Of a stretch of 51,105 nucleotides of DNA, positions 1,954-38,021 are shown in pieces (within the stretch, counting starts at the first letter, position 1; each line of letters begins with the position of its first letter). The notes below the pieces were generated by a model that ran no database searches, was not told where the DNA came from, and worked only from the letters and a program-made list of their open reading frames with translations. Origin of the DNA: Planctomycetota bacterium (GTDB lineage: Bacteria; Planctomycetota; Phycisphaerae; SM23-33); NCBI GenBank assembly GCA_016235825.1, contig JACRIL010000078.1, forward strand, positions 1 through 51,105, written 5' to 3'. Made by a program: the position numbers and the translations under genes.

Positions 1954-2042
1954 TTAAACCACGGCAACACGGATCCGCAAAGTGCGGGGAATTGGGATTC
2001 AGCTGTCGCATCGCCCGTTGCTTACGTTTCATAACTGAACAT

Positions 2043-3119: not shown

Positions 3120-3141
3120 GCTCATAAAAGGAGGTTTTAAA

Positions 3142-6679: not shown

Positions 6680-6728
6680 CTTGGTCCAGCCGGAAACAGG
6701 AAATTATCTGGGAAAGGACGGACCAGCC

Positions 6729-7100
6729 ATGACGAGGCATCCTGCATGGGAAAAGTGGCCCAAGGCGGAGAAGGTAATTGTCCGCCAGGCCTTTAAAAAC
6801 GCGTATCAGCGGGAATGTGCCGCCCTGATTGAAACGCTGAAAAAGGAGCTTGCCGCTGTCGAGAAACCGGAAGACCTGTGGATCTTCGCCGACAAGATCG
6901 CCGACTGCCGCGATGAAATCCACAGGAAATATGACTTCAGATATTCCGTCTTGCAGCGAGTCCTGGCGAATCTCCTTGTCGATGGCTCGCTTTCGCTGGA
7001 CGATCTTCAGGGGTTGAACGAGGAAAAACTGACGGACCTGTCCAAATCTGCCAGAGATTATCGTGAAATCAGAAAAATGTACGAACGGGACGACGGATAA
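6729..7100 (+). CDS. Fluorescence recovery protein-like small helical protein
   Basis: A soluble protein of 123 residues without signal or TM segment. Its pattern resembles the fluorescence recovery protein (FRP) family: a start of the form WEKWPKAEKVIVRQAFKNAY, a charged helix with ALIETLKKEL, then PEDLWIFADKIADCRDEIHR, KYDFRYSVLQRVLANLL and a closing LSLDDLQGLNEEKL. In cyanobacteria FRP detaches the orange carotenoid protein from the phycobilisome, but homologues occur in non-photosynthetic bacteria with unknown roles. The match is from memory of the family pattern and is not confirmed. ATG 6729 is chosen because the upstream part of the frame overlaps the repeat. No carotenoid-binding partner is in the window. 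Confidence 0.6.
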   Translation: MTRHPAWEKWPKAEKVIVRQAFKNAYQRECAALIETLKKELAAVEKPEDLWIFADKIADCRDEIHRKYDFRYSVLQRVLANLLVDGSLSLDDLQGLNEEKLTDLSKSARDYREIRKMYERDDG

Positions 7101-12046: not shown

Positions 12047-12053
12047 AGGCAAA

Positions 12054-13754: not shown

Positions 13755-14896
13755 GGAAGACGATTTTCATTCTGGCAGCGGCGGTTGTGGCGTCGGCGTG
13801 GGCCGCCGGCGACGATCAGCCCGCCAGCCGGCCGGCCGATTCCCGGCGCGCCGAGGAATTCACCGCACTGTGCGCCGCGCTTGCCGCCCGGGCCCAGGCA
13901 GCCGACACCATGACCGTCGCCGGCGCCGACGGCTGGCTGTTTCTGGCGGGCGAGTTGAAGTTCCTGGCCGTCGGCCGGTTCTGGGGCGACCGCGCGAAGG
14001 TTGTCTCGCGGGCCAACGACCGCGAATCGGCCGACCCGCTGCCGGCGATCATCGACTTCAAAAAACAGCTCGACAAACTGGGCATCGAATTGATCGTCGT
14101 GCCCGTGCCGCCCAAGGCCGCCATATATCCCGACAAACTTCCGGCCGCTTCGGGCGGCGCACAGGCCTTCCCGGCCGCCGGTGCGGTTCGATACGACCCG
14201 GCCCTCGCCGAATTCCACAAGGTGCTGGCGGAAAACGGCGTGCGGACGCTCGATCTGTCCGCCGCGATGTTAAAGGCCCGCGCCGCCGACGCCGCCGAAG
14301 GCCCGGTCTTCTGCCGGACCGACACGCACTGGACGCCTCGCGGCTGCCGGATCGCCGCCGATGCAATCGCCGGCCAGATCCGTCTCTGCCGGTGGTACAA
14401 AAAGCCCGACAAGGCCGTCTTCGCCTCGACGCGGCAGGCCGTCGAGATCGTCGGCGATCTTGTGGACAACCCGGCCGGGGCGAAAAAAGAGACGATTGAT
14501 CTTCTGTGCGTCGGCGTGGAGCGGCAGGGCAAACTGGAACCGCTCAAGGCCGACGCTAAAAGCCCGATCTTGCTGATGGGCGACAGCATGTGCCTGGTCT
14601 GGAACATGTTTCTGCCGGGCGAGCAGGACCAGACCACCCAGCCTCGCGGGCTCCGGCCTTCCACCCGGCCGGCCGGAGCGGGGCTTGCGGACCTGCTGGC
14701 ACTGGAGCTTCAGACGCCGGTCGATCTGCTCGCCGCGATGGGCGGCGGAGCGACCCAGGCCCGCGAAGACCTCGCCGACCGGGCAAAGGCCGACAGGCAA
14801 TATCTTGCCGGAAAAAAAATCGTCATCTGGTGCTTCGCCGCCAGGGCATTCACACTCAGCTTCGACGGTTGGCGGATCAGCCCCCTAAACCGCTGA
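13751..14896 (+). CDS. AlgJ/AlgX-type SGNH-like acetyltransferase, copy 2
   Basis: A second and shorter member, 381 residues, with a cleavable-looking signal peptide (MRKTIFILAAAVVASAWA) followed by a PASRPAD linker. It has GADGWLFL, the DTHW block (Asp191, His193) and a GDSM block (Asp278, Ser279). The ATG at 13751 overlaps the upstream stop as ATGA and is preferred over the in-frame ATG at 13730. Two different SGNH partners for one MBOAT may modify two positions or two polymers. The stop codon lies inside a decayed REP-like repeat (14890-14930). Confidence 0.85.
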   Translation: MRKTIFILAAAVVASAWAAGDDQPASRPADSRRAEEFTALCAALAARAQAADTMTVAGADGWLFLAGELKFLAVGRFWGDRAKVVSRANDRESADPLPAIIDFKKQLDKLGIELIVVPVPPKAAIYPDKLPAASGGAQAFPAAGAVRYDPALAEFHKVLAENGVRTLDLSAAMLKARAADAAEGPVFCRTDTHWTPRGCRIAADAIAGQIRLCRWYKKPDKAVFASTRQAVEIVGDLVDNPAGAKKETIDLLCVGVERQGKLEPLKADAKSPILLMGDSMCLVWNMFLPGEQDQTTQPRGLRPSTRPAGAGLADLLALELQTPVDLLAAMGGGATQAREDLADRAKADRQYLAGKKIVIWCFAARAFTLSFDGWRISPLNR

Positions 14897-15012: not shown

Positions 15013-15060
15013 TTAAAAGTCCCGCTGATTCGTAGTTGCTTGTGAGGGCATCAACCGGCA
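15013..15060 (+). promoter_or_regulatory. Upstream block shared with the second VWA gene
   Basis: The stretch beginning TTAAAAGT, then CTGATTCGTAGTTG, recurs at 16460 before the next paralogue with few changes. It lies 113 bases before the ATG at 15126. It is either a duplicated promoter region or a regulatory site. Confidence 0.45.
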
Positions 15061-15125: not shown

Positions 15126-16325
15126 ATGGCCGGCGTCAGGTGCGAAAACTGCGGCAACAGCCTGAATCTGAAGTCTCTGGCGGAGATATCGTTCAAATGC
15201 CCGCTTTGCGGAGCAAGGCTGCTGGTCCCGGCGGATTGTGCCGGACGGCTGGAAGGCGAAGTCGGCGGCCGGCCGAAAGATGCGTTGCCGGATGGCAATA
15301 ATAAGGAAGCAGGCCGATCCCGACGCGAGGATGCAAATATCCTGGGTATTCTTGCGTGCGGCATGCCATGGGTTTTGAGCATTTTCATGCACGCGGGCGT
15401 GTTTCTCCTGGCGATGTTCGTGGTGTTCATCGTCGCGTCGGCCCGGCCGAAACCGGTGGAAATCCCGGACGTCAAACCGTGTCTGGGACCGCAGGCCAGC
15501 GAGGGCGTAATGACTCCCGGCAACGGAGGGGATATCCGCGTAAAGCCCGCCGCTCCGGTACATGGCAAAATAAAAGGATACTACATCAGGCCCGGCAGAC
15601 TGGCGGCCGAGTCTAACGGCTTTGACGGCAGGGACGACCTGATAGGGACAAAAGAGTCCGGCTCGGCAGGCAGCGGGCAGGCGGAGGAATTTGGGTTGCA
15701 AAGCGGCGGAGGCGGCGTCGGGCCGCAAAAGATTTTGCCGGAAACAATTTTTACGCTCACGGGCGGCGGAAGCGCGAGCGGGCCGAGATGGGGAGGTTGT
15801 ACTTTGGGTGGTTGCGGTAGTTATCAGGTTATTTATGTCATCGACCGATCAGGCTCGATGGCTTGTTCGTTTGATTTTCTCCGCAGGGAAATGCTTCGTG
15901 CGATAGGCATGATGAAAGACGCGCAGGATTTTCATGTGATATTTTATTCCGACGGCGAGCCGATTGAAAATCCGCCAAAACAGCTTGTTGCGGCCAGCAG
16001 GGCCAACAAAATAATGGCTGCCGAATTCCTCAAGGGCATTGCCCCCTACGGGCCGACCGATCCGCTGGCGGCGCTGAATCGCGCATTCGACGTGCTGCAA
16101 AACAAGAAAAAGGGCGGCAAGCTGATCTATTTTCTTTCCGACGGCCTGTTTCCGGACAGCAGCGAGGTGATGAATCTCATAGCCCAGCGGAATCCTCAGG
16201 GGGCCAATCAGGTAATGATCTGCACATTCCTTTACGGCAGCAGGGACAAAAACGCCGAGGCGGTCATGCAGAAGATCGCCATAGAGAATAGGGGCCGGTA
16301 CAAATATGTTGATCCGGAGGAGTAA
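15126..16325 (+). CDS. Zinc ribbon-TM-VWA protein, copy 1
   Basis: The protein has 399 residues. The N-terminal zinc ribbon has Cys6, Cys9, Cys25 and Cys28. A single TM segment (about residues 78-104) contains Ser85-x3-His89. A Gly-rich linker follows, then a von Willebrand A domain whose metal site begins IDRSGSM (Asp240). The topology would be zinc ribbon inside and VWA outside. ATG 15126 is chosen because AAGGAG lies six bases upstream and both paralogues start at the same point of the zinc ribbon. The copy is the most divergent of the three and has extra Cys residues in its linker. By position it probably works with the ExbB/ExbD proteins downstream. Confidence 0.85.
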   Translation: MAGVRCENCGNSLNLKSLAEISFKCPLCGARLLVPADCAGRLEGEVGGRPKDALPDGNNKEAGRSRREDANILGILACGMPWVLSIFMHAGVFLLAMFVVFIVASARPKPVEIPDVKPCLGPQASEGVMTPGNGGDIRVKPAAPVHGKIKGYYIRPGRLAAESNGFDGRDDLIGTKESGSAGSGQAEEFGLQSGGGGVGPQKILPETIFTLTGGGSASGPRWGGCTLGGCGSYQVIYVIDRSGSMACSFDFLRREMLRAIGMMKDAQDFHVIFYSDGEPIENPPKQLVAASRANKIMAAEFLKGIAPYGPTDPLAALNRAFDVLQNKKKGGKLIYFLSDGLFPDSSEVMNLIAQRNPQGANQVMICTFLYGSRDKNAEAVMQKIAIENRGRYKYVDPEE

Positions 16326-16459
16326 CGTCTCTGCTGGTTCGGGCGAAGGCTTACTGCTAACTTCTTTATTTGCAATAAGATAAGCCAAACCCCTGTTCTG
16401 CTGTCCGAAATGGCGGGATCGTCGGGCGGAAACGGGGAAAAATATGCAGAAAAGCACTA

Positions 16460-16507
16460 TTAAAAGTATCACTGGTTCGTAGTTGATGTTGAAGGCCTGC
16501 GGCAGAG
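16460..16507 (+). promoter_or_regulatory. Upstream block shared with the first VWA gene
   Basis: TTAAAAGT followed by CACTGGTTCGTAGTTG matches the block at 15013. It lies 98 bases before the ATG at 16558. An A-rich stretch precedes the block in both places. Confidence 0.45.
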
Positions 16508-16557
16508 GTTGCCGGGGCTGGCAAACATGACAACCGTTAAAGAAAAGGGGTAGGGAA

Positions 16558-17691
16558 ATGGCCGACTTCAGGTGCGAGAAATGCGGGAAGCTGCTGAGCG
16601 TGGACGCCGGGGCGGGGACGTCGTTCAGGTGCCCGCAGTGCCGGGCGCGGCTGCTGGTGCCTGCGGGCCTGGCCGCGCTGCCAAGTCCCAGGATTGCGGG
16701 CGACAACCTCCGGGCCGGGGAAGCTGCCGGCCGGGACGAGGCCGAACAGGTCCAGCACGAGGAGAAGCTATTCGGCGTGCTGGCCTACGGCATGCCGTGG
16801 GTCATCAGCGCATTCATGCACGTCGGCATATTCCTCATGGCGATGTTCGTGGTGTTCATCGTCGCAGCGGCCCAGCCCGTGCGAACCGATATCACGATCC
16901 CCGACGCGGTGTTTAACACGGAAAATCCGGGCGGAGTGATGAATCCGGGCGGCGGCGGCGATCCGAACATAAAGGCTGCCGCACCGGTCAAGGGCACTTC
17001 CCCCGGCCTCTCGAGACGGGAAAGCAAGATCGCAAACTATTCGTCCGAGGCGAGCGGCAATATCCCCCTGATAGGACTGGATACTGGCGGAACCGGTGGC
17101 GGCGGCGGGGCCTTTGATATCGGTCCCGGCGGCGGCGGCAGCGTGGGGATTAAAAGCAATTTCTACGGCAGCGGCGGCGGAAATGTTCACCAGGTCGTCT
17201 ATGTCATAGACCGGTCCGGCTCGATGATCGACACCTTCGATTATCTCCGCAAGGAGATGCTGACCTCGATAGGCCAGCTCAAGGACCCGCAGGATTTTCA
17301 CGTGATCTTCTATTCCGACGGTCCGCCCATGGAGAATCCGCCCAGGCAGCTTATCCAGGCCAACAAGGCCAACAGGCTCATGGCCGCGGAATTCCTCAAA
17401 GGCATCACCCCCGAGAGGCAGACCGACCCGGTTCCGGCGCTGAAGCGCGCGTTTGACGTGCTCCAGGGCGCCAGGAAGCAGGGCAAACTGATCTACCTGC
17501 TGTCCGACGGCCTGTTTCCGGACAACAACGCGGTGCTCAAGCTGATAGCCGAGCGGAATCCGCCGGGCAATGGCCAGGTCGTGATCCACACCTTCCTGTA
17601 CGGCGATAGGCCCAAGGAGGCCGAGGAAGTCATGAAGAAGATAGCCGACCAAAACAAGGGCAGATACCGGTACGTCAATCCGGAAGAATGA
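16558..17691 (+). CDS. Zinc ribbon-TM-VWA protein, copy 2
   Basis: A protein of 377 residues with the same architecture as copy 1. The zinc ribbon has Cys6, Cys9, Cys25 and Cys28. The TM segment (about residues 75-102) includes Ser84-x3-His88. A conserved NPGGVMNPGGGGDPN motif follows, then a Gly-rich linker and the VWA domain with IDRSGSM (Asp218) and later FYSDG and YLLSDGLFPD. The start has a purine-rich GGTAGGGAA upstream. The C-terminus RYRYVNPEE is nearly the same in all three copies, which suggests that the end is functional. Confidence 0.87.
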   Translation: MADFRCEKCGKLLSVDAGAGTSFRCPQCRARLLVPAGLAALPSPRIAGDNLRAGEAAGRDEAEQVQHEEKLFGVLAYGMPWVISAFMHVGIFLMAMFVVFIVAAAQPVRTDITIPDAVFNTENPGGVMNPGGGGDPNIKAAAPVKGTSPGLSRRESKIANYSSEASGNIPLIGLDTGGTGGGGGAFDIGPGGGGSVGIKSNFYGSGGGNVHQVVYVIDRSGSMIDTFDYLRKEMLTSIGQLKDPQDFHVIFYSDGPPMENPPRQLIQANKANRLMAAEFLKGITPERQTDPVPALKRAFDVLQGARKQGKLIYLLSDGLFPDNNAVLKLIAERNPPGNGQVVIHTFLYGDRPKEAEEVMKKIADQNKGRYRYVNPEE

Positions 17692-17698
17692 GAATCCG

Positions 17699-17749
17699 GC
17701 CGCCGTCGCGTGCGCGGGGCGGGCGGGTCCGCAGACGGGCGACGGCGGC
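17699..17749 (+). terminator. Intergenic hairpin after VWA copy 2
   Basis: GCCGCCGTCGC (17699-17709) pairs perfectly with GCGACGGCGGC (17739-17749) across a 29-base loop. Only an A-rich run follows, so it may be a processing or partial termination site rather than an efficient terminator. Confidence 0.4.
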
Positions 17750-17903
17750 GCGAAAAAGATTTCAAAAGAAATCGTGAAAAAAATTGAAAAAGACCGGGCC
17801 GGAGGTTAGAAATAAGGTATCTCCGGCCTGTGCAAACTCCGGGAATTCAGGCCAAGAGTTTGTAAAATTCCAATAGGGTCCTTAAACAAGCAGGAGACTA
17901 GCC

Positions 17904-19055
17904 ATGGCAGTCGATTTCCGATGCGAGAAGTGCGGGAAGTTGCTCAGCGTTGACGCCCCGGCGGGCACGTCGCTCAAATGTCCGCATTGCAAGGCCAAAC
18001 TGGTTGTGCCGGCGGGCCTTGCCTCCCTGCCCAAACCCAAGATAGCCGGCAGGCCGGGCCAGCGCGGGGACGGCGAACCTGACGAGGGCGAGGGAGGGGA
18101 GGGCGAGGAAGAGGAACAGCGCAATGACAAGCTCTACGGCGTGCTGGCTTACGGCATGCCGTGGGTGATAAGCGCGTTCCTGCACATAGGCATATTCCTG
18201 CTGGCGATGTTCATAGTGTTCGTCGTGGCGGCGGTCCAGCCCAAGCCCGTGGGCATAGAGATTCCCGACGCCCTGCTCAACACGGACAATCCCGGCGGGG
18301 TGATGAACCCCGGCAGCGGGGGCGATCCGAACATGAGGGCGGCCGCCCCGGTCAAGAGCAATTCCAAAGGCTTCTCCAAGCGCGAGGGGAAGGTGGCGTC
18401 CGACGCCTCGGGCGAGACCGGCAACATCGACCTGATCGGCCTGGGCGGCGGCGGGGCCGCGGGCGGCGGGGCGCTGGCCGAGTTCGGGCTGGTGGGCGGC
18501 GGCAGCGGCTCGGGCCCCAAGAGCGGCTTCTACGGCAGCGGCGGAAACGCCTACCAGGTCGTCTACGTCATCGACCGCTCCGGCTCGATGATCCAGACCT
18601 TCGACTACCTCCGCAAGGAGATGCTGACCTCGATAGGCACGCTCAAGGATGTCCAGGATTTTCACGTGATCTTCTACGCGATGGGCACGCCGGTGGAGAA
18701 TCCGCCCAAGCAGCTTATTGCGGCCAACAGGAACAACAAGGTGGCCGCCGCGGAGTTCCTCAAGGGCGTTACGCCGGAAGGCCAGACCGACCCTGTTCCG
18801 GCGATGCAGCGGGCATTCCAGGTGCTCCAGGGCGCCAAGAAGACCGGCAAACTGATCTACCTGCTGTCGGACGGCCTGTTCCCGGATAATGCCTTGGTGC
18901 TCAAAACGATCAAGGAACAGAATCCGCCTGGTCCCAATCAGGCCATGATCAACACCTATCTGTACGGCGAAAGGCCCAAGGAGGCCGAGGAAGTCATGCA
19001 GAAGATAGCGACCGAAAACAAGGGCAGATACAAGTTCGTCAATCCCGACGAATGA
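17904..19055 (+). CDS. Zinc ribbon-TM-VWA protein, copy 3
   Basis: A protein of 383 residues that is most similar to copy 2. The zinc ribbon has Cys7, Cys10, Cys26 and Cys29. A Glu-rich acidic stretch (about residues 56-72) precedes the TM segment with Ser90-x3-His94. The MIDAS motif is IDRSGSM (Asp224). The position of FYSDG in the other copies reads FYAMG here. The start is supported by AGGAG upstream. The gene ends 37 bases before the next one, so transcription probably continues through the helical proteins. Confidence 0.87.
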   Translation: MAVDFRCEKCGKLLSVDAPAGTSLKCPHCKAKLVVPAGLASLPKPKIAGRPGQRGDGEPDEGEGGEGEEEEQRNDKLYGVLAYGMPWVISAFLHIGIFLLAMFIVFVVAAVQPKPVGIEIPDALLNTDNPGGVMNPGSGGDPNMRAAAPVKSNSKGFSKREGKVASDASGETGNIDLIGLGGGGAAGGGALAEFGLVGGGSGSGPKSGFYGSGGNAYQVVYVIDRSGSMIQTFDYLRKEMLTSIGTLKDVQDFHVIFYAMGTPVENPPKQLIAANRNNKVAAAEFLKGVTPEGQTDPVPAMQRAFQVLQGAKKTGKLIYLLSDGLFPDNALVLKTIKEQNPPGPNQAMINTYLYGERPKEAEEVMQKIATENKGRYKFVNPDE

Positions 19056-19092
19056 TGCCTGGCGATCTGAATAGAGTTGAAAGGAAGCACTC

Positions 19093-20175
19093 ATGCGCAA
19101 GACGGCTGCAATACTGGCGATTCAATGCCTGATGGCCCTGCCGGCCTGGGCGCAGGGCACGGACGAAGTAACGCCCTACGGCGCCGACGGGAAAAACGCG
19201 GGCATACCGTTCAAGGCCGTCTCCGTAACCGACTTCAGCAGAGAGTACAAGCTGGAGTTCACTGACGGAACGAGGACCTACAGCAAGCCTATCAAGGAAG
19301 TAAGGCAGATCAAGCTGACGAGCAGCGCCGATTTTTCCAAGGCCGAGGAAATGGCCGCCAAGGGAGACGACGGCGCCAGGGTGGTCGCCCAGTACAAGAG
19401 GGCCGAAGGCCAGATGTCGGGCGCCTGGCAGAAAAGACTGATCCAGATACGGCGTCTCCAGGCCGCCGGCAACAGCGGGTTGGTGGGCATCGCCGTGGAT
19501 GACTGGGTCAAACTGGCGAAGGAAAACAGCAAATACGACCCGGTGATACTGGCCCTTGCGCCCACGACGGTCGCGATAAAAGGATCCGAAGAGAACAAAA
19601 AGGCCATCGATATTCTCAAGGCCAATGCCGAAAGCCAGAACGCGAACTTCAAAAAGCTGGTCCGCGACCTGCTCATGAATGTCCTGACGGCGGAGGGACG
19701 GGCCGAAGAAGCCGCCGTGTATGCGGGAGGCGGCGGTGAAACCACGACAGTCAATCCTATCGGGCCGACTCATGTCGTAAGCACGGTGGTCGGAATCGCC
19801 GCGATCAACACTCTCCTTGCGGCCAAAAAGTACGACGACTGCATCGCCCAGGCCAAGGCCGGGCTGAGGAATTTCCGGGACGCCGATCTGCCCGATGCCC
19901 TTTATATTCTCGCGCAGGCCCAGTTGATCAGGGGCAAAGAGTCCAAGGACCAGGCCATGATCGGCGAGGCCGGCCTGAACTTCATGAGAATTTACACGTT
20001 CTACGACACCTATAGCCGTGCCGGCGAGGCGCTGCTGAACGCCGGCATCGCCTGCCAGGAACTTGGAAACAAGAAGGCGGCCATGATCGCGTTCAGCAAA
20101 GTTCTGGAACGATATCAGAATAACGCCGAACTGGCCAAGCGGGCCCAGGCGTGCATCGGCTCGCTGAACAAGTGA
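19093..20175 (+). CDS. Exported helical-repeat protein, paralogue A
   Basis: A protein of 360 residues with a signal peptide (MRKTAAILAIQCLMALPAWA). A short beta-rich N-terminal domain (residues about 35-75, ending EVRQIKLTSSADF) is followed by alpha-helical repeats that look like TPR. The C-terminal part shows the pattern GEALLNAGIACQELGNKKAAM, typical of a TPR unit. It is clearly paralogous to the next gene. No enzymatic motif is present. AAGGAAG lies upstream of the ATG. It probably acts in the periplasm as a scaffold for the neighbouring VWA and ExbB/D proteins. Confidence 0.72.
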   Translation: MRKTAAILAIQCLMALPAWAQGTDEVTPYGADGKNAGIPFKAVSVTDFSREYKLEFTDGTRTYSKPIKEVRQIKLTSSADFSKAEEMAAKGDDGARVVAQYKRAEGQMSGAWQKRLIQIRRLQAAGNSGLVGIAVDDWVKLAKENSKYDPVILALAPTTVAIKGSEENKKAIDILKANAESQNANFKKLVRDLLMNVLTAEGRAEEAAVYAGGGGETTTVNPIGPTHVVSTVVGIAAINTLLAAKKYDDCIAQAKAGLRNFRDADLPDALYILAQAQLIRGKESKDQAMIGEAGLNFMRIYTFYDTYSRAGEALLNAGIACQELGNKKAAMIAFSKVLERYQNNAELAKRAQACIGSLNK

Positions 20176-20189
20176 TTTTTTGACGTCAT

Positions 20190-20209
20190 GCAGGCGGTCC
20201 GACGCCTGC
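20190..20209 (+). other. Small intergenic hairpin
   Basis: GCAGGCG (20190-20196) pairs with CGCCTGC (20203-20209) between the two helical paralogues, just upstream of the GGGAG ribosome binding site of the second. It may influence processing or translation. Confidence 0.45.
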
Positions 20210-20225
20210 CAATGCGGGAGTCGTC

Positions 20226-21254
20226 ATGCGGACGTTCGCGGTCATAATGATGCTATTGGGGGCGCCGGCGGCCTGGGTCCGGGCTGACGACATAACCCTC
20301 ACGACGACGCGAATCCCCTGGCGGGCTGTCACCATCACCGATTTCCGCGACATGCGGGTCTGTTTCACCACGGACAACGGGGTGAAAAAGGAAAAGCCGC
20401 TCGGTGAAATCAGGCAGATAGCGATGTCGTCCAGCGCGGATTTCACGAAGGCCGAGGAGATGCTGGCCAAGGGCCAGTATGAGCAGGCGGTGGAGCTTTA
20501 CACCAAGGCCGGCCGCCAGTTCGACCAGCCCTGGCAGAAAAAGCTTTCGGGCTATCGCCGGCTGGCGGCGGTCTGCAACACCGTGCTGATCGGCACGGCC
20601 GCCGACGACTGGCTGGCCATGGCCAAAGAGAGCCACTACGACAGGACGGTCCTGGATATGGTTCCCGCAAAGGCGGACAAAAAAGGCTCGGCGCAGAACG
20701 CCGCGGCGATAAAGTCTCTGGCCGCCGCCCAGAAGACCGAGAACAGGGATTTTCAGCGGTGCATCTGGACGCTTCTGGTTACGATCCACACGGCCGAAGG
20801 CGACGGCGACAAAGCCGCCGAATACGCCAGGAAACTTGTCGGAGAACAGGCCGACGCCAACGCCCTGCCGATAAACGCATTGCGGGCGCTTCTGGAAGGC
20901 AATAAGCTTGACGAATGCATCGCGGCGGTTTACAAGGGGCTCAAAACCGACAAGTACAAGGATGCCGACCTGCCCGAAGTTTTTTTCATATTGGCCCAGG
21001 CCCAGCTTGCCAGGCACGCCCGGTCGAGCGACCAGGCCCTGCTTGTCGAGGCCGGGCTGAACTTCATGCGCGTGGCGGTTTTCTATCCCTCGAGCCGCCA
21101 GGCGCCCGAGGCCCTGTTCAACGCCGGACAGATAAACAGGAAATTGAATAACAAAGCCGCCGCCCGGGCCGCCTTCCAGAAGATCATCGAGACGTATACG
21201 ACGGATGAGGCGATAATTGCCCGGGCCAAAGAGGCGATTGCATCGTTGAATTAG
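20226..21254 (+). CDS. Exported helical-repeat protein, paralogue B
   Basis: A protein of 342 residues, related to paralogue A along the whole length. It has a signal peptide, a beta domain ending EIRQIAMSSSADFTKAEEM, and TPR-like helices (for example GQYEQAVELYTKAGRQF). The C-terminal repeat EALFNAGQINRKLNNKAAAR aligns with that of paralogue A. The N-terminal beta domain also resembles the start of the CX4CH protein at 27887. The function is unknown; the position within the VWA/Exb locus suggests an accessory role. Confidence 0.72.
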   Translation: MRTFAVIMMLLGAPAAWVRADDITLTTTRIPWRAVTITDFRDMRVCFTTDNGVKKEKPLGEIRQIAMSSSADFTKAEEMLAKGQYEQAVELYTKAGRQFDQPWQKKLSGYRRLAAVCNTVLIGTAADDWLAMAKESHYDRTVLDMVPAKADKKGSAQNAAAIKSLAAAQKTENRDFQRCIWTLLVTIHTAEGDGDKAAEYARKLVGEQADANALPINALRALLEGNKLDECIAAVYKGLKTDKYKDADLPEVFFILAQAQLARHARSSDQALLVEAGLNFMRVAVFYPSSRQAPEALFNAGQINRKLNNKAAARAAFQKIIETYTTDEAIIARAKEAIASLN

Positions 21255-21353
21255 CCGTTAAGTCGGATATTATTCCTGAACTTCGCAAGCTGTCCCCGCG
21301 GCGAAGCGGCGACGGCTCCGTGTGTCCGGTTCGATGAGCCTGCGGCGCGGAGC

Positions 21354-21402
21354 GGCCGGCTGAAGGTCTGGGTCGAAGCGTTTTCGCCCGTTCAGCCGGT
21401 CC
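21354..21402 (+). other. Hairpin in the leader of the ExbB gene
   Basis: CCGGCTGAA (21356-21364) pairs with TTCAGCCGG (21391-21399) 41 bases upstream of the exbB start. The 185-base gap here is the longest inside the locus and may hold a promoter, but no clear -35/-10 pair was seen. Confidence 0.4.
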
Positions 21403-21439
21403 AAACCGACAGGGACTTTGAGATTCAAGGAGATTGTAG

Positions 21440-22081
21440 ATGAATTACTTCAACGTCTTGTTCTGGCCCGGCGGCGGCGCCATAGGCCTGGTTTTGTGGT
21501 GCGTGAACGTGATCGTATGGTCTCTGATCATACAGCACTTCATCATCATACGCCGCACCACCATTGTGCCGGACCTGGTCAAGGCGCAGCTAGAGGAGTT
21601 CTTCGCCAACAAGCGCTACCGCGAGGCGATCGAGATGACCGCCAACGACCCCAGTTTCCTGGGCCAGATCGTGCACGCCTCGCTGAGCGAGGCCAAGCAC
21701 GGCTACCCCGCGATGGAGCGCGCCCTCGATGAGGCCGCCGAGCACAGGGTCACCAGGATGCTGCGGTATACCGAGTGGCTCAACCTGCTGGGCAACCTTG
21801 GCCCGATGGTGGGCCTGTTCGGCACGGTCTGGGGCCTGATCAAGACGTTCTTCGTAATCGTGGAAAAGGGCGGCTCGGTCAAACCGGCCGAACTTGCCGA
21901 AGCGCTGGGCATCAAGCTGGTCTGCACGCTGCTGGGCCTGGCGGTGGCCATTCCCGCGCTGGCCGCTTATGGCGTGATGCGCAACAAGATCGACAGCCTG
22001 ACGGCCGAGGGGCTTGTAACGGCCCAGCAGTTTATTTCAAACTTCCGTCCGGCCGCCGGCGGGGCCAAGAAGCCCGAGTGA
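21440..22081 (+). CDS. exbB: MotA/TolQ/ExbB proton channel protein
   Basis: An inner membrane protein of 213 residues, the stator subunit that uses the proton gradient together with ExbD. An N-terminal TM helix (about residues 10-35) is followed by a cytoplasmic helical part, then LLGNLGPMVGLFGTVWGLIK and the last TM segment LVCTLLGLAVAIPALAAYGV. Both blocks are family signatures. The length is close to ExbB. AAGGAG seven bases before ATG 21440 sets the start. It is followed by three ExbD-type genes, a 1:3 gene ratio. Confidence 0.93.
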   Translation: MNYFNVLFWPGGGAIGLVLWCVNVIVWSLIIQHFIIIRRTTIVPDLVKAQLEEFFANKRYREAIEMTANDPSFLGQIVHASLSEAKHGYPAMERALDEAAEHRVTRMLRYTEWLNLLGNLGPMVGLFGTVWGLIKTFFVIVEKGGSVKPAELAEALGIKLVCTLLGLAVAIPALAAYGVMRNKIDSLTAEGLVTAQQFISNFRPAAGGAKKPE

Positions 22082-22121
22082 TTTTCGCGGGGAATCCGCT
22101 CTTTAGCAAGGAGTCGCAGAC

Positions 22122-22616
22122 ATGAAGAAAAAGAAACGCGGGTCGCCAGGAGAGGTGGGGTTCAACTACACCCCGCTGATCGACGTAACGTTCAATATTA
22201 TCATTTTCTTTATTCTGACGACAGAGATCGCCGAGGCCAATCTGGCCCAAGTAACTCCGCCATATCCTGCGGACAGCGTCGCCCATGGCCGCGTGGCGGG
22301 CGAAAATCACTGCACCGTGAATATCGTGGTGAAGAACCCTGACTCCAAGGATACGGAAGGCGCAGGCGAGGCCAAGGAATATCAGATAGACGGCGAGCCT
22401 ATCCCGCTGGGCGATGTCGAGAGGCTGTCCCAGGAGTTCAAGAGCCGCCAGGCGAACTGGCAGAGGCCGGCCGGCGCCAGCAAGGACGCCGAGTTCTATA
22501 TTGAGGTGCGCGGTGACGAGCGCGTCAGATACGACGCGGTGGCGCCGGTTCTGCTGGCGGCAGCCAAGGCCCAGATAAAGAAGATGACTCTGACGGCCAA
22601 GAAGAAAGACGATTAA
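22122..22616 (+). CDS. exbD: ExbD/TolR-type protein, copy 1
   Basis: A protein of 164 residues with a short basic cytoplasmic start (MKKKKRGSPGE) and one TM helix, FNYTPLIDVTFNIIIFFIL, containing the proton-carrying Asp21. The periplasmic part includes a VNIVVKN strand and a YIEVRGDERVRYDAV block as in ExbD/TolR. It is the most canonical of the three. AAGGAG is present upstream. It would form the stator with ExbB. Confidence 0.92.
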   Translation: MKKKKRGSPGEVGFNYTPLIDVTFNIIIFFILTTEIAEANLAQVTPPYPADSVAHGRVAGENHCTVNIVVKNPDSKDTEGAGEAKEYQIDGEPIPLGDVERLSQEFKSRQANWQRPAGASKDAEFYIEVRGDERVRYDAVAPVLLAAAKAQIKKMTLTAKKKDD

Positions 22617-22645
22617 CCCCAGATTCTCCACGGGAGAAATGCAAG

Positions 22646-23206
22646 ATGAGCGAAGACAATAACATTCCCAGACTTCCAGCAAGCGCACCCAGGCCCGCAG
22701 GCGGCGCCAAGCCGCCCGGAGCCGCCGCCCGTCCGCCCGCCGAGGCGCACTATGTAAAACCCCGCAAGAAAAAAGAGGTCGAGACGACCAAGATTCACCC
22801 GCCTCTGCTGGCCCTGATCGACGTGCTGTTCACGCTGATGATGTTCTTCATAATAGCGGCCAGGACCAAGCTGGCCGAGGGCGAGATTCCCGGTTCGCTG
22901 CCCAAGATCGGCGGCGCCGCTGCCGCCGCCAGCACGACTCCGCAGCCTATCACCATCACCGTCCGTCCGATCGGCGACGGGAACTTCGCGTGCCAGTTCG
23001 ACCTTGACGGGCAGGCCCTGACTGAGCCGGGCCAGCTTTACGAGATACTGCGTCGCAAGCAGGCGGCCTACGGCCCCGGGACTGCCGATACGGTTCCGGT
23101 GATAATCAGGCCGATACAGGCCGCTCGCTGGAAATGGGTTGTCGAGGCGTTCAACCAGGCCTTGCGGGCGCAGTTCAAGGAGATAGGATTTTCTTCGGCC
23201 GGATGA
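22646..23206 (+). CDS. exbD: ExbD/TolR-type protein, copy 2 (extended N-terminus)
   Basis: A protein of 186 residues. The first 50 are Pro/Ala-rich and basic (ending YVKPRKKKEVETTKIHPP), longer than in usual ExbD. The TM helix LALIDVLFTLMMFFIIAA carries Asp59. The periplasmic domain follows with the ITVRPIGDG strand. Its sequence is close to copy 3 and far from copy 1, so copies 2 and 3 are the product of a later duplication. It starts 30 bases after copy 1 ends. Confidence 0.9.
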   Translation: MSEDNNIPRLPASAPRPAGGAKPPGAAARPPAEAHYVKPRKKKEVETTKIHPPLLALIDVLFTLMMFFIIAARTKLAEGEIPGSLPKIGGAAAAASTTPQPITITVRPIGDGNFACQFDLDGQALTEPGQLYEILRRKQAAYGPGTADTVPVIIRPIQAARWKWVVEAFNQALRAQFKEIGFSSAG

Positions 23207-23274
23207 TTTATCGTGCCGCCGGAACGGCCTGATATGGTTCCGTCGGATGGGCCGGTTTATGTCGGGGTTTTATT

Positions 23275-23318
23275 GATCCCGAAGGCTCGCGGAGGCGCAA
23301 TCCGCCGCGGGCGGGATC
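23275..23318 (+). other. Hairpin between ExbD copies 2 and 3
   Basis: GATCCCG (23275-23281) pairs with CGGGATC (23312-23318), and inside it CGCGG pairs with CCGCG. A GTAAAAAGAGGGAG stretch with the ribosome binding site of the next gene follows. Confidence 0.45.
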
Positions 23319-23340
23319 GGTAAAAAGAGGGAGAAGCGAC

Positions 23341-23868
23341 ATGTTTGACATGGACAAATCGTGGAATGACGGCCCGAGGTCGCCGGATGCGACCGGACAA
23401 TCGCCGGCCGCGGAGCCATATGCCAGACCCCGGAAGAAAAAGGAAGTTGAGCCGACCAGGGTTCACCCGCCTCTGCTGGCCCTCATCGACGTGTTGTTCA
23501 CGCTGATGCTGTTTTTCGTTATCGCGGCCAGGACCAAACTGGCCGAAGGCGAAATTCCAGGCTCGCTGCCGAATATCACCGGAACGGATGAAGTATCCGC
23601 TGAACCTATAGCGATAACGGTCAGGCCTCTGGGCGACGGCCAGAACAACTGCCAGTACGAACTGGACGGCCAGGCCCTCAGCGACGCCGGAAAACTTTAC
23701 GAGCGCCTCAGTTCCAGGCCCAAGTTGTACGGGATCGGGACGCTGGAAAATATCCCGGTGCTCATCAGGCCGCTGCGGGGCGTCCGCTGGCGATGGGCGG
23801 TCGAGGCGTATAACCAGGCCTTGCGGGCCGGCTATCATAAAGTCAGGTTTGACCCCGGATATTATTGA
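23341..23868 (+). CDS. exbD: ExbD/TolR-type protein, copy 3
   Basis: A protein of 175 residues with an N-terminal extension of about 40 residues, then RKKKEVEPTRVHPP, the TM helix LALIDVLFTLMLFFVIAA with Asp50 and a periplasmic domain closely similar to copy 2 (RPLRGVRWRWAVEAYNQALR). The sequence through the TM and the next 15 residues (RTKLAEGEIPGSLP) is almost identical in copies 2 and 3. GGGAG lies upstream. Confidence 0.9.
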   Translation: MFDMDKSWNDGPRSPDATGQSPAAEPYARPRKKKEVEPTRVHPPLLALIDVLFTLMLFFVIAARTKLAEGEIPGSLPNITGTDEVSAEPIAITVRPLGDGQNNCQYELDGQALSDAGKLYERLSSRPKLYGIGTLENIPVLIRPLRGVRWRWAVEAYNQALRAGYHKVRFDPGYY

Positions 23869-23944
23869 AGAAAGCGAAGAAAGGTTTTTCATCCGAAATG
23901 CAGGCCATGCCGCGAGATTCGGCGAATTTTGAAGGAGCAGGATA

Positions 23945-26900
23945 ATGCGTATAAGGACAGCGATCATATCAATCTGCCTGTGCGCGCCGCTGGCTGTTCA
24001 AATGCCCGCCTCGGCGCAGGCGCCCGCCAGGCCCGCGGGCAGAAACCCATATGACAGCCTGGAGAATGACAAGCTCCGGCAAGCCCTTACCAACATGAAG
24101 ATGGGCGAGTTCATTCAGGAACTGGCCAAGAGCCTCACCGGACCGGAGAAGGACCTTACGGAAATGGCGGGCCTCCTTGTCGGGGCCGACGCCGCCGCGG
24201 ACCAGAAAAAACGCGAGGCTTTGTACGATGAGGCCTTCCAGAAGCAGGAGAAAATCGTCGAAGCAATGACCAAGGCCCTGTCCAGGGACCCCACCGGCGA
24301 AGATGTGGTGAAGGTGTACAACGCCAGAATCTCGCTTATCGACATCCAGGGCCTGCGGCGGACCAAGATATATACCGACCGGATGCTGTATCTGCTTGCC
24401 GGCGAGGAGGATCGAAAGGAAGTCGAAGAGCACACCGCCATCGCCGTCAAACTGCTGGATGCGCTCACCAAAGACATCAACACCCAGTTGAGCAAGTGGG
24501 GCCAGGACACCAATCGGCTGATCGCGGACCGGCCGGCCCTGGAGGAGATACTGCCCATCCTTAAATACAAGAGCGCCTGGATCAAGTATTACCGCGGTTC
24601 GTCCATCCTGGCCGACGACAAGAGCAAGGATGCCGAGCGGAAAACGGTGCTCAACGAGAGCATAAACCTGGCGAACGAGTTCGTGAACAATCCCGAATAT
24701 GGAGTGGTGGTCTGGAGCAGGCGGTTGCGAGCCAGCGGATATCGCGAAACGGGCCAGCACAAGGTGGCCGAGGCTGATTTCGCCGCCGTGCTGGGCGACG
24801 CGACCGCTCCACCCGACGCCAAGCTGGAATCGTTGTTTGAGTCCGCCCGCAATCTGGCGGAGGCGGGGGCCGAATTCATCAAGAATGACAAGCTCGACCA
24901 GGGCAATGAAAAATTCAATCTCGCCATCAAAGCCCAGGAGGAATTTCCCCAAGCTGCGATGGACGCAGTGAAGAACGAAAGCGCCAGGCTGGGCGTCGAT
25001 CTTAAGGCTGCTATGTTATGGGGATACATCTACGAATTATGGTCCAAGGCCGTCAGGCCCAAGGATCCCAAAAAGGCCGATGAGTATATGATAAAGGCCC
25101 AGGATTCCATTGTGAATCTGATGAATAAATATCCGCAATACAATGAAGAACTGATAAAGATATTCAAGGAAAAATACCGCACGGGCAGCGGCGGGGCGAA
25201 TCCTGAGACGATGAATCCGCCCATCCTGTTCGGTCTGGCGATGGAGGAAATCCGCAAAAAAACAGATGATGGAAGAAAAAAAGCCCTGGAATATCTGGAT
25301 GTTCTGATCCACCGGGCGGAAAAAGGTGAACAAACCGCCAAAGGGATGTATCCTTTGGCCCTGCTGAATAAGGGGATAGCCTGCTCGTATTTGGCTAAGA
25401 ACATCGAGGCGGCTGAGACGCTGAAGAAAGTCGTTGAGCTTTTCCCTAACTTTGAAAAAGCGCCTTTGGCCGCCTATAACGCCGTTAATATATACAATAC
25501 CATCATAAACGACTATTCCAAGGCGCATCCCGGCGAAGACATTCCGATCAACTACCGCGAGGGGCTGGTCAAGTGCATCCTGGAAATGCTGGCCAGATAT
25601 GAGAAGAATCCGGAGTCTTTCAAGGGGAGCCTTGAACAACTGCCCGAGCAAAATCGCGATCTGCGGATATGGTACTATGATCTTGGTTTCAACAGCGAGG
25701 TGCTGGCGGATTATTCCGAGACGGCCCGGCGGGCCAAGGGTCCGGCGTCGGCGCCTGCCGGCAGCCAGCCGGCGTCAGGTCCGGCAGTGCCGGCCAAAAC
25801 GCGGGAGCAGTGGCTTGCCGATGCGATTGGCGCATATGAAAAGTATCCCCAGGACAAGCCCGAATACATACAGTGCCGCGACCGCATCGTGCACATAACC
25901 TGGAGGCCGTTTGAAGATTTCGGCGAGGAGGACCTGAAGAAAGACAAGGAGGCGGTTCTGAAGGTCGTGCCGAAATTGCAGGAATTCATAACCTTTTCCA
26001 AACAGAAGATCGGTCAACTCAAGACTGCGGTTCAGACGGCTGAAAACAGGGCGGAACTGGAAAAACCGGTCAGCGAACTGTTGAGGATGTATGATCAGAC
26101 AAAACCGGGAAGTGACGAAGCTGCTCGACTCAAAAATGCCATTGACTATAAACAACTCCAGGAGAGCGGGTCGTGGGCTGAGTTTACGGCCCTGACCCTC
26201 CTTTACGACCTGAGGAACGAAAAACAGGTGCTGCCGGAGATCGACAAGTTTCCGGAAACATGGCCCGGCATGCCTATTCTCCGCAACAGCAGGGAGTACG
26301 TCATCCGCAAACTGGTGGACGAGGGCAAGATCAAGGAGGCCATCTCCAAGATCCAGGAATTCCAGCGCAAATATTCCTCCAAGGATGCCACGGACCTGAT
26401 AAGCCTCGTGCTCAGCAAGGTCCGCAGGAAGATCAACGACTTGCAGGCTCTGGCCAAAAAGGATACGGCCAAAAAGCAGGAACTGGAAACTTACGTCAAG
26501 GCATACGCGGAATTTGCCGGAACGCTGTATGACGACGCCAAGAAAAGCGGCGCCGAACCGGAAAAACTGTATCCGCTGACGCAGATGTACGGCGAATCGC
26601 TCCTGCTGCGGGCCGATTCCGCCACTGACGAGGAGAAAGCCAAATTCTACAAGGATGCCCAGGCCTGCTTCCAGGAATGTTATGACTACGACTTCAAGGA
26701 GCGCCAACAGACGTTCAAAAAGGGAAAATTTGACGAGATCGATCGCCGGCTCAAGGCGGTCGATAGCGTCGGCGCCGATTACAACCAGTTGGACAAGCTG
26801 ACGAAGGACTATTTCAAGTTCTGTTCCGATAACGGGATCGAGATCATCAGCGGCGAGGAGATTCAGTTGAGGCTGACCTCCGACGCGATGATTGCCGCCC

Positions 26901-27538
26901 CCAATGAGCAGGAGCGGGAGAAAAAGTTCAAAAAGGTCAAGGAACTGCTGACGGCGGTGTACAAGGCGCTGCTGCGGCAGGATGATCGCGGCCAAACACG
27001 GATCGACGCCCTGATACCGATCGACGCGACGAATGTCCGCGGCGTCGGCAAATGCGCCTTCCATCTCAAGGACTACGGGAGCGCCAAGAAATATTACGAA
27101 CAACTGCTTAAAGGTCTGGATCCGGTGAAATACTGGGAAATGTACTGGGAAGCCAAGGCGGATTTATTTGAGGCTCTGCTGGAGCTGAATCGCAAGAACG
27201 CCGATCCGAAGAGCCTGATCGCCCTGGCGATGTCGATCAATAAGCTGCTGATCGACGCCGAGAACGATGAAAGGCTTGTGATGCGCATCCGGCCTTACCG
27301 CGACAGGATGCTCGCGGTCAAGAATCAGGCCAATGAACTGGCAAAGGTCTCGGTTCCGGCCCCGGCCACCGAACCCGCCCATGGGGCGGAGACGCCGGGC
27401 GCGGCCGAAAGTCGGCCGGCATCATCTCCCGCCGAGGGCGGGGCGCCTGCGCCGGCAGAGCCGGCGGCGTCGGAGCCGGCAAAAACGCCCCAGCCCGCAA
27501 AGACCCCTGAATCGTCCCCGGCTTCAGGACCTTCGTAA
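23945..27538 (+). CDS. Very large exported TPR-like protein
   Basis: A protein of 1197 residues with a signal peptide (MRIRTAIISICLCAPLAV). Almost all of it is alpha-helical with repeat patterns such as YNAVNIYNTI, ALLNKGIACSYLAKNIEAA and GKCAFHLKDYGSAKKYYEQL, the last two typical of TPR. Two low-complexity regions (about residues 600-618 and 1140-1197) carry Pro, Ala and Ser. The protein probably forms a large periplasmic scaffold. AAGGAG lies before ATG 23945. Its position as the last gene of the ExbB/D cluster suggests a structural role in that system. Confidence 0.72.
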   Translation: MRIRTAIISICLCAPLAVQMPASAQAPARPAGRNPYDSLENDKLRQALTNMKMGEFIQELAKSLTGPEKDLTEMAGLLVGADAAADQKKREALYDEAFQKQEKIVEAMTKALSRDPTGEDVVKVYNARISLIDIQGLRRTKIYTDRMLYLLAGEEDRKEVEEHTAIAVKLLDALTKDINTQLSKWGQDTNRLIADRPALEEILPILKYKSAWIKYYRGSSILADDKSKDAERKTVLNESINLANEFVNNPEYGVVVWSRRLRASGYRETGQHKVAEADFAAVLGDATAPPDAKLESLFESARNLAEAGAEFIKNDKLDQGNEKFNLAIKAQEEFPQAAMDAVKNESARLGVDLKAAMLWGYIYELWSKAVRPKDPKKADEYMIKAQDSIVNLMNKYPQYNEELIKIFKEKYRTGSGGANPETMNPPILFGLAMEEIRKKTDDGRKKALEYLDVLIHRAEKGEQTAKGMYPLALLNKGIACSYLAKNIEAAETLKKVVELFPNFEKAPLAAYNAVNIYNTIINDYSKAHPGEDIPINYREGLVKCILEMLARYEKNPESFKGSLEQLPEQNRDLRIWYYDLGFNSEVLADYSETARRAKGPASAPAGSQPASGPAVPAKTREQWLADAIGAYEKYPQDKPEYIQCRDRIVHITWRPFEDFGEEDLKKDKEAVLKVVPKLQEFITFSKQKIGQLKTAVQTAENRAELEKPVSELLRMYDQTKPGSDEAARLKNAIDYKQLQESGSWAEFTALTLLYDLRNEKQVLPEIDKFPETWPGMPILRNSREYVIRKLVDEGKIKEAISKIQEFQRKYSSKDATDLISLVLSKVRRKINDLQALAKKDTAKKQELETYVKAYAEFAGTLYDDAKKSGAEPEKLYPLTQMYGESLLLRADSATDEEKAKFYKDAQACFQECYDYDFKERQQTFKKGKFDEIDRRLKAVDSVGADYNQLDKLTKDYFKFCSDNGIEIISGEEIQLRLTSDAMIAAPNEQEREKKFKKVKELLTAVYKALLRQDDRGQTRIDALIPIDATNVRGVGKCAFHLKDYGSAKKYYEQLLKGLDPVKYWEMYWEAKADLFEALLELNRKNADPKSLIALAMSINKLLIDAENDERLVMRIRPYRDRMLAVKNQANELAKVSVPAPATEPAHGAETPGAAESRPASSPAEGGAPAPAEPAASEPAKTPQPAKTPESSPASGPS

Positions 27539-27695: not shown

Positions 27696-27770
27696 GGCGG
27701 CATACCCAAGCGGTTCAAGGGGACGGATTGCAAATCCGTTATCTCGTGGGTTCAAATCCCACTGCCGCCT
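27696..27770 (+). tRNA. trnC: tRNA-Cys (GCA)
   Basis: The acceptor arms GGCGGCA and TGCCGCC pair perfectly. The anticodon stem ACGGA/TCCGT closes a TTGCAAA loop with anticodon GCA. The T arm is GTGGG-TTCAAAT-CCCAC. The discriminator base is T, as expected for bacterial tRNA-Cys. CCA is not encoded. Confidence 0.95.
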
Positions 27771-27886: not shown

Positions 27887-29185
27887 ATGACGGTTAACCG
27901 GGATTCGCGGCTCGCGTTGGGAATGGTTCTGGGCCTTTTTCTGGCCTGTGCGGCTTTTGGCGAGGATCAGATTCTCGTCAAAAAGGACGGCATCAAGATC
28001 ACAGGCGAGATAACCAAGGAAGGGGACAATTATAAAGTCAAAACACGGGCGGGCGAGGTGGTCGTGCCCGCCAAAGACGTGGACCGGATTGATCCGACGC
28101 CCAGAGGCGTCTACGGCAAAAAGGCCGCCGAACTCAAGCCCGACAGCGCCAATGTCGCACAGAAGAGATACGAACTGGCCCAATGGGCTTTTGAACAGGG
28201 GCTTTTCAACGAGGCGATGGAGCAGGTGAAACTGCTGGAACAGGCTCAATGGGGGGGCGAGGGATCGTTCTATGCAACGGTCGGCCCCAAGCTCAAGGAA
28301 AAGATCGAAAGCGCCATTGGCGGCAGAACGCCCGATAACGGCGGCACGCCCGCCGCCACTCAGGGCGTTGGCAACACGCCGAAAACAGGCGGCGAGGTCG
28401 TTCACGACTTTACCAAGGAACTGTTGACGCCCGAACAGATTTCCCGGATACGCCTGGAGGAACTGACCAAGGAGGACAAGGATGTAAGGGTCGAATTCAA
28501 ACCGAATACCCTGAAAGGATTCATGAAAAAGCTTGCGGGCCGGGACGGCTACGACGAAAAAACGTTCCAGAAGATGAACGACTTTGAGAAGCTCTGGTTC
28601 ATGCTGGACGCTTTCGGCGGCAAGGACAGGGATGAGGTGAAAGACGCCGTGAAGATAAATACCGACCCGAAATTCATGGTGGAATTCAGGAAAATCTGGC
28701 CGCTGATCAGGTCAAACTGCGCGTCTGCGAATTGCCACGGCGGGTCGGGATCGGACATCAAGGGCGGATTTTACCTTTACAGCGGCGGAGGAAACATTGA
28801 GCGGGAATTATACACCAATTTCATAATTCTCAGGGGCTTTAACAAGGGCGCCAGGATGATAGACGTCCAGCAGCCGGAGAAATCGCTGCTGCTGTGCTAC
28901 AGCCTGCCGCGGGACAAGACTGACATGAAGCATCCTTTCGCCAACCAGAAAGAGATTAACGCGGGCGGCGCCACGGTCAGCCCGATCGAAAAACCCTTCC
29001 TCTGCGACAGCAAGGATTCAGTAAACTATAAGAAGATATCCGAGTGGATGTCCAGCCTTCAGCTTCTCATGAGGGTCGATTATAACCTTGACAGTTGGGC
29101 GCCCTGGGGCGTGGAAAAACGCTTCTTCCAGCTAAAGGTATCCGTGAGGGAAATCCTTGGCGAGACGCGTCCTGCCGGCAAGTAG
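27887..29185 (+). CDS. Exported protein with a CX4CH haem-like motif
   Basis: A protein of 432 residues. ATG 27887 is chosen over the longer frame because the upstream part covers the tRNA, a signal peptide follows directly (LALGMVLGLFLACAAFG) and GGAGA is upstream. Residues about 28-70 form a small beta domain (VKKDGIKITGEITKEGDNY) of a kind common in planctomycetes. The middle is helical. Around residue 275 the block NCASANCHGGSG gives Cys278-x4-Cys283-His284, similar to planctomycete cytochrome-like domains but with four residues between the cysteines rather than two. The rest resembles those domains in having a DVQQPEKSLLL block. Haem attachment is not proven. Confidence 0.65.
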   Translation: MTVNRDSRLALGMVLGLFLACAAFGEDQILVKKDGIKITGEITKEGDNYKVKTRAGEVVVPAKDVDRIDPTPRGVYGKKAAELKPDSANVAQKRYELAQWAFEQGLFNEAMEQVKLLEQAQWGGEGSFYATVGPKLKEKIESAIGGRTPDNGGTPAATQGVGNTPKTGGEVVHDFTKELLTPEQISRIRLEELTKEDKDVRVEFKPNTLKGFMKKLAGRDGYDEKTFQKMNDFEKLWFMLDAFGGKDRDEVKDAVKINTDPKFMVEFRKIWPLIRSNCASANCHGGSGSDIKGGFYLYSGGGNIERELYTNFIILRGFNKGARMIDVQQPEKSLLLCYSLPRDKTDMKHPFANQKEINAGGATVSPIEKPFLCDSKDSVNYKKISEWMSSLQLLMRVDYNLDSWAPWGVEKRFFQLKVSVREILGETRPAGK

Positions 29186-37764: not shown

Positions 37765-37852
37765 GCCACGAGCTGCTGGTCGGGATGAAGTGGATGTGGA
37801 AGCGAGGATGCCGATTGAGCCATTGCTGCACCTTTTCGTGCTTAGTCGCCAT
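37765..37852 (-). pseudogene. IS630-type transposase fragment
   Basis: Reading leftward from 37852 the peptide runs KHEKVQQWL, NRHPRFHIHF, IPTSSSWL. This is the region before the last catalytic residue of IS630-family DDE transposases (usually followed by NxVERWF, absent here). Nothing else of the transposase is found, and the frame runs out near the end of the Asp-box gene. The codons just before it belong to the repeated leader sequence, so the fragment is fused in frame to a copy of that leader. Confidence 0.7.
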
Positions 37853-37900
37853 ATTTCTCATCTTGGTATACATCCTGCCGCGGTTAAAAAATTCGATAAA
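37850..37900 (-). promoter_or_regulatory. Repeated leader element, copy 1 (- strand)
   Basis: On the - strand it reads TTTATCGAATTTT, then AACCGCGGCAGGATGTATAC and AGATGAGAAATATGGC. It matches the leader of the ECF fusion gene including the start codon region, and leads into the transposase fragment. Confidence 0.65.
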
Positions 37901-37969
37901 TGTGAGTTTCTTCGCTGTTTTGGGCGGGCAACACAACTCAAATCGGCCGATTTGGGCCAGTTTGAATAA

Positions 37970-38021
37970 TTTATCGAATTTTCCGATGCCAGCAGGACGT
38001 GTATTATTGAAGGAGATTATC
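37970..38021 (+). promoter_or_regulatory. Repeated leader element, copy 2
   Basis: TTTATCGAATTTT is followed by CGATGCCAGCAGGACGTGTAT, trimmed here to its conserved core GCAGGACGTGTAT, and then AAGGAG six bases before ATG 38022. It is divergent from copy 1, with 69 bases between them, so the two would fire in opposite directions if they are promoters. Confidence 0.6.

Follow-up and report, generated by a model that had tools for sequence, protein, structure and literature searches.

Which client does an ExbB/ExbD proton motor serve where its genes stand in line with genes for three VWA proteins and no TonB is detected? Motors of this 5:2 type drive a short list of known jobs, and we know of no established use of them in planctomycetes. 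The question is raised by positions 1 to 51,105 of contig JACRIL010000078.1 of the Planctomycetota assembly GCA_016235825.1 (Phycisphaerae; SM23-33), a stretch referred to here as the window.

A first-pass annotation had proposed that the VWA proteins act in TonB's place in an undescribed system. The novelty so claimed has to be given up, because the protein family, its SHLS helix, its synteny and AF3 models of the motor complex are already contained in an article by Williams-Jones et al. (June 2025; PMC12204202). There, the vWA force transducers of the PVC group, with their SHLS helix, are encoded beside genes of the TPR and tolQ kinds and a pair of tolR genes; Planctomycetes are named as carriers of the first of two vWA families (Fig. 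4a,b), the linker is about 100 residues long, and AF3 models of relatives place the vWA helix on the TonB/TolA motor site. The same article describes how TonB and TolA dock: one face of a single helix, with Ser...His...Leu...Ser, binds the motor.

Gene content and order of the cluster

The set listed by the first-pass annotation, namely three genes for zinc ribbon-TM-VWA proteins, two for exported helical proteins (here TPR1 and TPR2), exbB, three exbD and one for a 1197-residue helical protein, is present in full with matching domains and motifs, and all ten genes lie on the + strand, each at its predicted position (15126-27538). The cluster and the neighbouring features are as follows.

15013-15040, +: 28-nt element (TTAAAAGTNNCNCTGNTTCGTAGTTGNT) upstream of VWA1, common to 16460-16487
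15126-16325, +: VWA1, 399 aa, with zinc ribbon, membrane helix carrying S85/H89, linker and VWA domain
16460-16487, +: 28-nt element upstream of VWA2, common to 15013-15040
16558-17691, +: VWA2, 377 aa, laid out as VWA1 (sequence and structure model)
17904-19055, +: VWA3, 383 aa, 67% identical to VWA2
19093-20175, +: TPR1, exported, with signal-like N-terminus and CpoB/YbgF-like TPR end
20226-21254, +: TPR2, paralogue of TPR1 (42% identity)
21440-22081, +: ExbB, ExbB/TolQ-type proton channel subunit with GLFGTVWG motif (PF01618)
22122-22616, +: ExbD1, ExbD/TolR-type subunit with membrane-helix Asp (LIDVTF; PF02472)
22646-23206, +: ExbD2, of another ExbD type than ExbD1, with Asp (LIDVLF; PF02472)
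23341-23868, +: ExbD3, paralogue of ExbD2 (59% identity; PF02472)
23945-27538, +: exported all-helical protein of 1197 aa, predicted to be an alpha-solenoid whose tail is disordered and rich in Pro and Ala; its gene recurs as the closing one of the core module
27887-29185, +: exported protein with CX4CH motif, family-level neighbour, no Pfam match
30072-32234, +: coiled-coil protein, probable lipoprotein, family-level neighbour and candidate member of the system

The further claim that these genes share one direction and are separated by short gaps stands for the direction and the gene content, but not for the gaps, which reach 232 nt. Most of them measure 29-76 nt, those from VWA3 through TPR2 and from ExbB through ExbD2 being short, and long gaps lie 5' of each VWA gene (212-232 nt), of ExbB (185 nt) and of ExbD3 (134 nt); because of the gaps before the VWA genes and ExbB, a single transcript for the cluster is not established. 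Promoter and terminator scans yielded little above chance. The 28-nt element upstream of VWA1 and VWA2 is a candidate promoter or leader, around which the similarity extends over about 110 nt, through the start codon; two near copies lie elsewhere in the genome (C3:4018-4043, - strand, and C85:33242-33267, + strand), and no intact VWA gene follows these distant copies.

Downstream of the cluster lies a tRNA-Cys gene (27696-27770), past which a conserved order of further genes is seen within the window's family: those for the CX4CH protein, a 239-residue protein, the probable coiled-coil lipoprotein and a sigma-factor-like protein of 562 residues. The CX4CH motif, possibly a c-type haem site, is present in 13 of 15 homologues of the 27887-29185 protein, whose gene, standing behind the tRNA, perhaps belongs to a transcript separate from the cluster. 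The 562-residue protein (32473-34161) is sigma-70-like with extra HTH domains, and its gene has a conserved place as the last of the family-level block. A functional link to the upstream acetylation genes (MBOAT and two AlgX-like; 10586-14896) was considered and rejected, as these are nearby in none of the fetched relatives. Elsewhere in the window, a member of the fluorescence recovery protein family (PF18032, 1.1e-19) is encoded in this planctomycete at 6681-7100, and the genes for two DUF4159 proteins (37785-40418 and 43890-46310) flank that of a 1083-residue protein whose N-terminal part is an ECF-type sigma factor.

The VWA proteins and their partners

Each VWA protein (377-399 residues) contains two CxxC pairs, one hydrophobic helix (residues 86-104 in VWA1, with equivalents in VWA2 and VWA3) and a C-terminal VWA domain, in which the DxSxS metal site is intact in all three cases. 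VWA1 is about 50% identical to VWA2 and to VWA3, and the latter two are 67% identical to each other, so that the three are paralogues. The structure model of VWA2 places the zinc ribbon at residues 1-38, the helix at 61-104, a disordered segment at 106-196 and the VWA domain at 199-377; the VWA fold is confident (pLDDT about 90) and is matched in Foldseek by solved VWA domains, including 4jdu, a Bacteroides aerotolerance-related VWA protein. The order of helix, disordered linker and globular end is TonB-like, and a disordered linker of about 100 residues with a vWA-fold end is shared with the published vWA force transducers. If the VWA domain is in the periplasm, the zinc ribbon must be cytosolic.

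The helix carries the Ser and His of the docking face. Ser-x3-His is present in VWA1 (S85/H89) and at the equivalent positions of VWA2 and VWA3, and it occurs in 62 of the 67 helix-bearing VWA proteins from ExbB-containing loci (66 if Ala or Gly is admitted in place of Ser, and all 67 if only a His in the segment is required), against two of 314 other predicted membrane helices from the same loci; as the sequences and loci are related, these figures, like the linkage counts given below, are not independent trials and show conservation. Moreover, a PW..S...H.G core (P80, W81, S84, H88 and G90 in VWA2 numbering) does not vary across an alignment of 17 relatives, although their identity to VWA2 goes down to 31%. 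The remainder of SHLS is absent from the three VWA proteins at the TonB spacing, His+7 being Ala and His+11 being Val in VWA1-3. Since PMC12204202 ascribes SHLS to 'many', not all, members, the missing Leu and second Ser are not taken to exclude membership. Past the helix, a short hydrophobic-Pro motif (ITIP/IEIP-type) is found in 27 of 67 VWA proteins, where 4.7 are expected from shuffled segments; it lies mostly 21-28 residues past the helix His, a near-fixed distance, at the site of the TonB/TolA motor box, and the single-chain model of VWA2 has no strand at that expected position.

The zinc ribbon is carried by 28 of 87 motif-bearing VWA proteins, mostly from the window's own family and class, together with two distant loci (L054 and L061). 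Among its matches to solved structures, RNA-polymerase zinc ribbons score much better than the AgmX/GltJ zinc domain (7zok), which is one of the weak matches; at an E-value of 0.24 the latter is not significant, and the ribbon as a proven relative of GltJ was rejected. Pairs of VWA genes, one with and the other without a ribbon, occur in two loci (L084, 8725-11122, and L092, 8365-11194), which suggests mixed transducers on one motor.

The motor genes retain the expected signatures. ExbB matches PF01618 at 5.6e-24, keeps the channel motif GLFGTVWG as in solved ExbB and has TolQ as its best curated relative; ExbD1-3 match PF02472 at 1.2e-16, 1.3e-8 and 8.2e-8, all three with the membrane Asp, and ExbD1 is only distantly related to ExbD2 and ExbD3. 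The C-terminal TPR regions of TPR1 and TPR2 match TIGR02795 at 1.3e-9 and 2.6e-8, both below the family cut-off, as are the scores of all cluster proteins against the curated TolQ, TolR and YbgF models. In its model, the 1197-residue protein forms an all-helical superhelix and has a tail that is disordered (mean pLDDT 75, pTM 0.48); for this model Foldseek returns generic solenoids with TM-scores of at most about 0.2-0.3, and its sequence gives only weak CpoB/TPR matches among solved structures. A Campylobacter flagellar periplasmic scaffold chain (9hmf), also among the Foldseek matches, was too weak to use.

Conservation of the neighbourhood and genomic context

A VWA profile search covered 246 genomes of the phylum, as well as 40 near relatives; loci were chosen by the VWA match, irrespective of neighbours or ExbB, and the other families were mapped by iterated profiles. 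ExbB lies on the same strand, at most 6 kb downstream, for 64 of 77 motif-bearing VWA genes with at least 4 kb of downstream sequence each, and 61 of these 64 are also accompanied by two or more ExbD genes; the other 13 have no ExbB nearby in the fetched stretch, so that the linkage is not universal. The association of VWA with exbBD that the first-pass annotation had proposed to look for in other genomes is therefore found across the phylum, and the opposite outcome, a family with no such neighbourhood, did not occur. By hand count, VWA occurs together with ExbD in 35 of the 40 relatives.

Most often the genes run in the order VWA, TPR, ExbB, ExbD, ExbD and large helical protein; among the 57 loci with VWA and ExbB, a recognised homologue of the large protein is found in 38 and one of TPR1 in 36. 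This core module is near-universal in the class sample. Three VWA genes are found only in the window among the fetched loci, two in nine loci, and three ExbD genes in five, one of which includes a 77-residue fragment.

The absence of TonB that had been remarked for the cluster holds, by domain search, for the whole genome (completeness 93.7%), in which neither TonB_C (PF03544) nor TonB_2 (PF13103) has a match anywhere, nor does the TonB-receptor plug domain (PF07715), and PF02472 matches nothing but ExbD1-3 of the cluster. As ExbD was detected nowhere else and searches for TonB_C, TonB_2 and the plug domain gave no match, the motor most probably has the VWA proteins as its clients. No TonB client can thus be recognised for the motor, a divergent one or one encoded in the 6% left unassembled being conceivable. 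Similarly, 30 of the 40 relatives have no TonB_C, and 39 have ExbD. Two further PF01618 matches lie outside the cluster, one of them in a flagellar MotA/MotB-like locus. The other (G000:C233; L046, about 1589-3583, - strand) is an ExbB-like gene followed by one for a coiled-coil protein, with no ExbD in the locus and an Asp in the N-terminal helix of the coiled-coil protein; it is possibly another proton motor.

A proposed trans-envelope motor and its relation to known systems

The reading that we prefer, with a probability of about 0.68, is that the cluster encodes a trans-envelope motor in which ExbB and ExbD pull VWA transducers docked via the Ser-x3-His helix. ExbB, expected to be a pentamer, and an ExbD dimer, probably of one ExbD1-type and one ExbD2/3-type chain, would turn proton flow into motion; the single helix of a VWA protein would dock on the outside of ExbB by its Ser-x3-His face, like TonB or TolA; the disordered Gly-rich linker, of about 90-130 residues, would span the periplasm; and the C-terminal VWA domain would hold a ligand via its metal site and be pulled. 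The likely periplasmic scaffold or ligand would be TPR1, TPR2 and the solenoid of 1197 residues, their conserved linkage being what makes them the leading candidates. Through the cytosolic zinc ribbon the cell could have a handle on the transducer, by which to recruit or gate it, as is reported for the ribbon of GltJ. That the VWA proteins stand in TonB's place is plausible in view of the invariant PW..S...H.G core, the Ser-x3-His pair and the phylum-wide linkage to ExbB/ExbD. As to the output, Tol-like envelope maintenance is our guess, and it is the most probable one because the parts most resemble TolQ, TolR and CpoB and because almost the whole class sample carries the core; a role in gliding or adhesion is possible.

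A true substitute for Tol-Pal, in which the VWA machine pulls the outer membrane at division and TPR1 and TPR2 are equivalents of CpoB, is doubtful but credible. ExbB is nearest to TolQ and the TPR proteins to YbgF/CpoB, and the breadth of the core in the class and the lack of TonB_C and TonB_2 proteins agree with it, whereas the cluster is without TolB or Pal, the genome's single OmpA-domain lipoprotein lies elsewhere, and every curated Tol score falls below its cut-off; it also overlaps the explanation by pulled VWA transducers, from which its output alone differs. Decidedly improbable is an adhesion or gliding-like machine, whose motor would drive the VWA proteins along or against the envelope as in Agl-Glt, with a zinc ribbon acting like that of GltJ. 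The pairing of ExbB with two types of ExbD, the TPR proteins and a transducer of zinc ribbon and TM helix do recall AglRQS-GltJ, 7zok appears among the ribbon matches, and gliding is also raised as a possibility by the authors of PMC12204202; however, RNA-polymerase ribbons outscore the non-significant 7zok match, and no C-terminal domain of TonB type, such as GltJ has, was found in the genome.

There is only a slight chance that the VWA proteins form a Bat/YfbK-like chaperone or insertion module merely adjoining a Ton or Tol motor. The VWA and TPR genes are reminiscent of Bat loci, and 4jdu is among the structural matches; yet the absence of MoxR ATPase and DUF58 reported at first pass is upheld for the window genes scanned against Pfam, the Ser-x3-His helix and the linkage to the motor would be left unexplained, and the motor would have no TonB client in a genome without TonB_C, TonB_2 or Plug. 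A bolder version of the preferred reading, which we consider unlikely, is that in Phycisphaerae the VWA-type motor would be the ancestral core energised trans-envelope machine replacing both Ton and Tol, with several zinc-ribbon-gated VWA transducers sharing one ExbB/ExbD motor with interchangeable ExbD and pulling a giant solenoid linked to a lipoprotein.

Because the genome's only detected ExbD genes are tied to VWA transducers and no TonB or plug domain was found, the published proposal of vWA transducers could be tried by a knockout here with no interference from Ton. The presence of a zinc ribbon points to regulation from within the cell, and the solenoid, its gene being conserved, is a first candidate for a periplasmic partner. 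As the central idea is already in print in PMC12204202, what is new lies in the variant anatomy and in a genome without detected Ton.

Among known systems, the Bat aerotolerance/MoxR loci share the company of VWA and TPR genes, whereas a proton motor stands here and neither MoxR ATPase nor DUF58 is encoded by the scanned window genes. Tol-Pal differs in its tolB and pal genes, which the cluster does not contain, the one OmpA-domain lipoprotein being encoded elsewhere in the genome. With TonB-ExbB-ExbD and TolA-TolQ-TolR, the cluster has in common the proton-channel subunits and a single-helix transducer with Ser-x3-His; unlike in those systems, the C-terminal domain is VWA rather than TonB_C, and the genome has no detected TonB-receptor plug domain. 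GltJ/AgmX of Myxococcus consists of a cytosolic zinc ribbon, one helix, a periplasmic part and a TonB-like end, and is served by a motor of ExbB with two ExbD types; zinc ribbon, helix, periplasmic part and motor composition thus recur here, while the TonB-like end does not and no significant sequence relation was found.

The second vWA family of PMC12204202 likewise joins a VWA domain on a membrane helix to a TolQ-like gene, but it has a transpore helix with Asp and no tolR, whereas the helix of the window proteins has no Asp and has His instead, and three ExbD genes adjoin. The closest likeness is to the first family, with its Ser/His helix, linker, VWA end and neighbouring TPR, tolQ-like and two different tolR-like genes; in contrast to what is described in the text of that article, where the word zinc does not occur, the window encodes a cytosolic N-terminal zinc ribbon, three VWA, two TPR and three ExbD proteins and the 1197-aa solenoid, and its VWA genes lie upstream of the TPR and motor genes. 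A search of the non-subscription literature beyond PMC12204202 returned no paper on this combination, and what is apparently new is a genome with no detectable Ton whose motor locus unites a zinc ribbon on the cytosolic side, VWA and ExbD genes in triplicate, the family-level downstream block and the recurrent alpha-solenoid gene.
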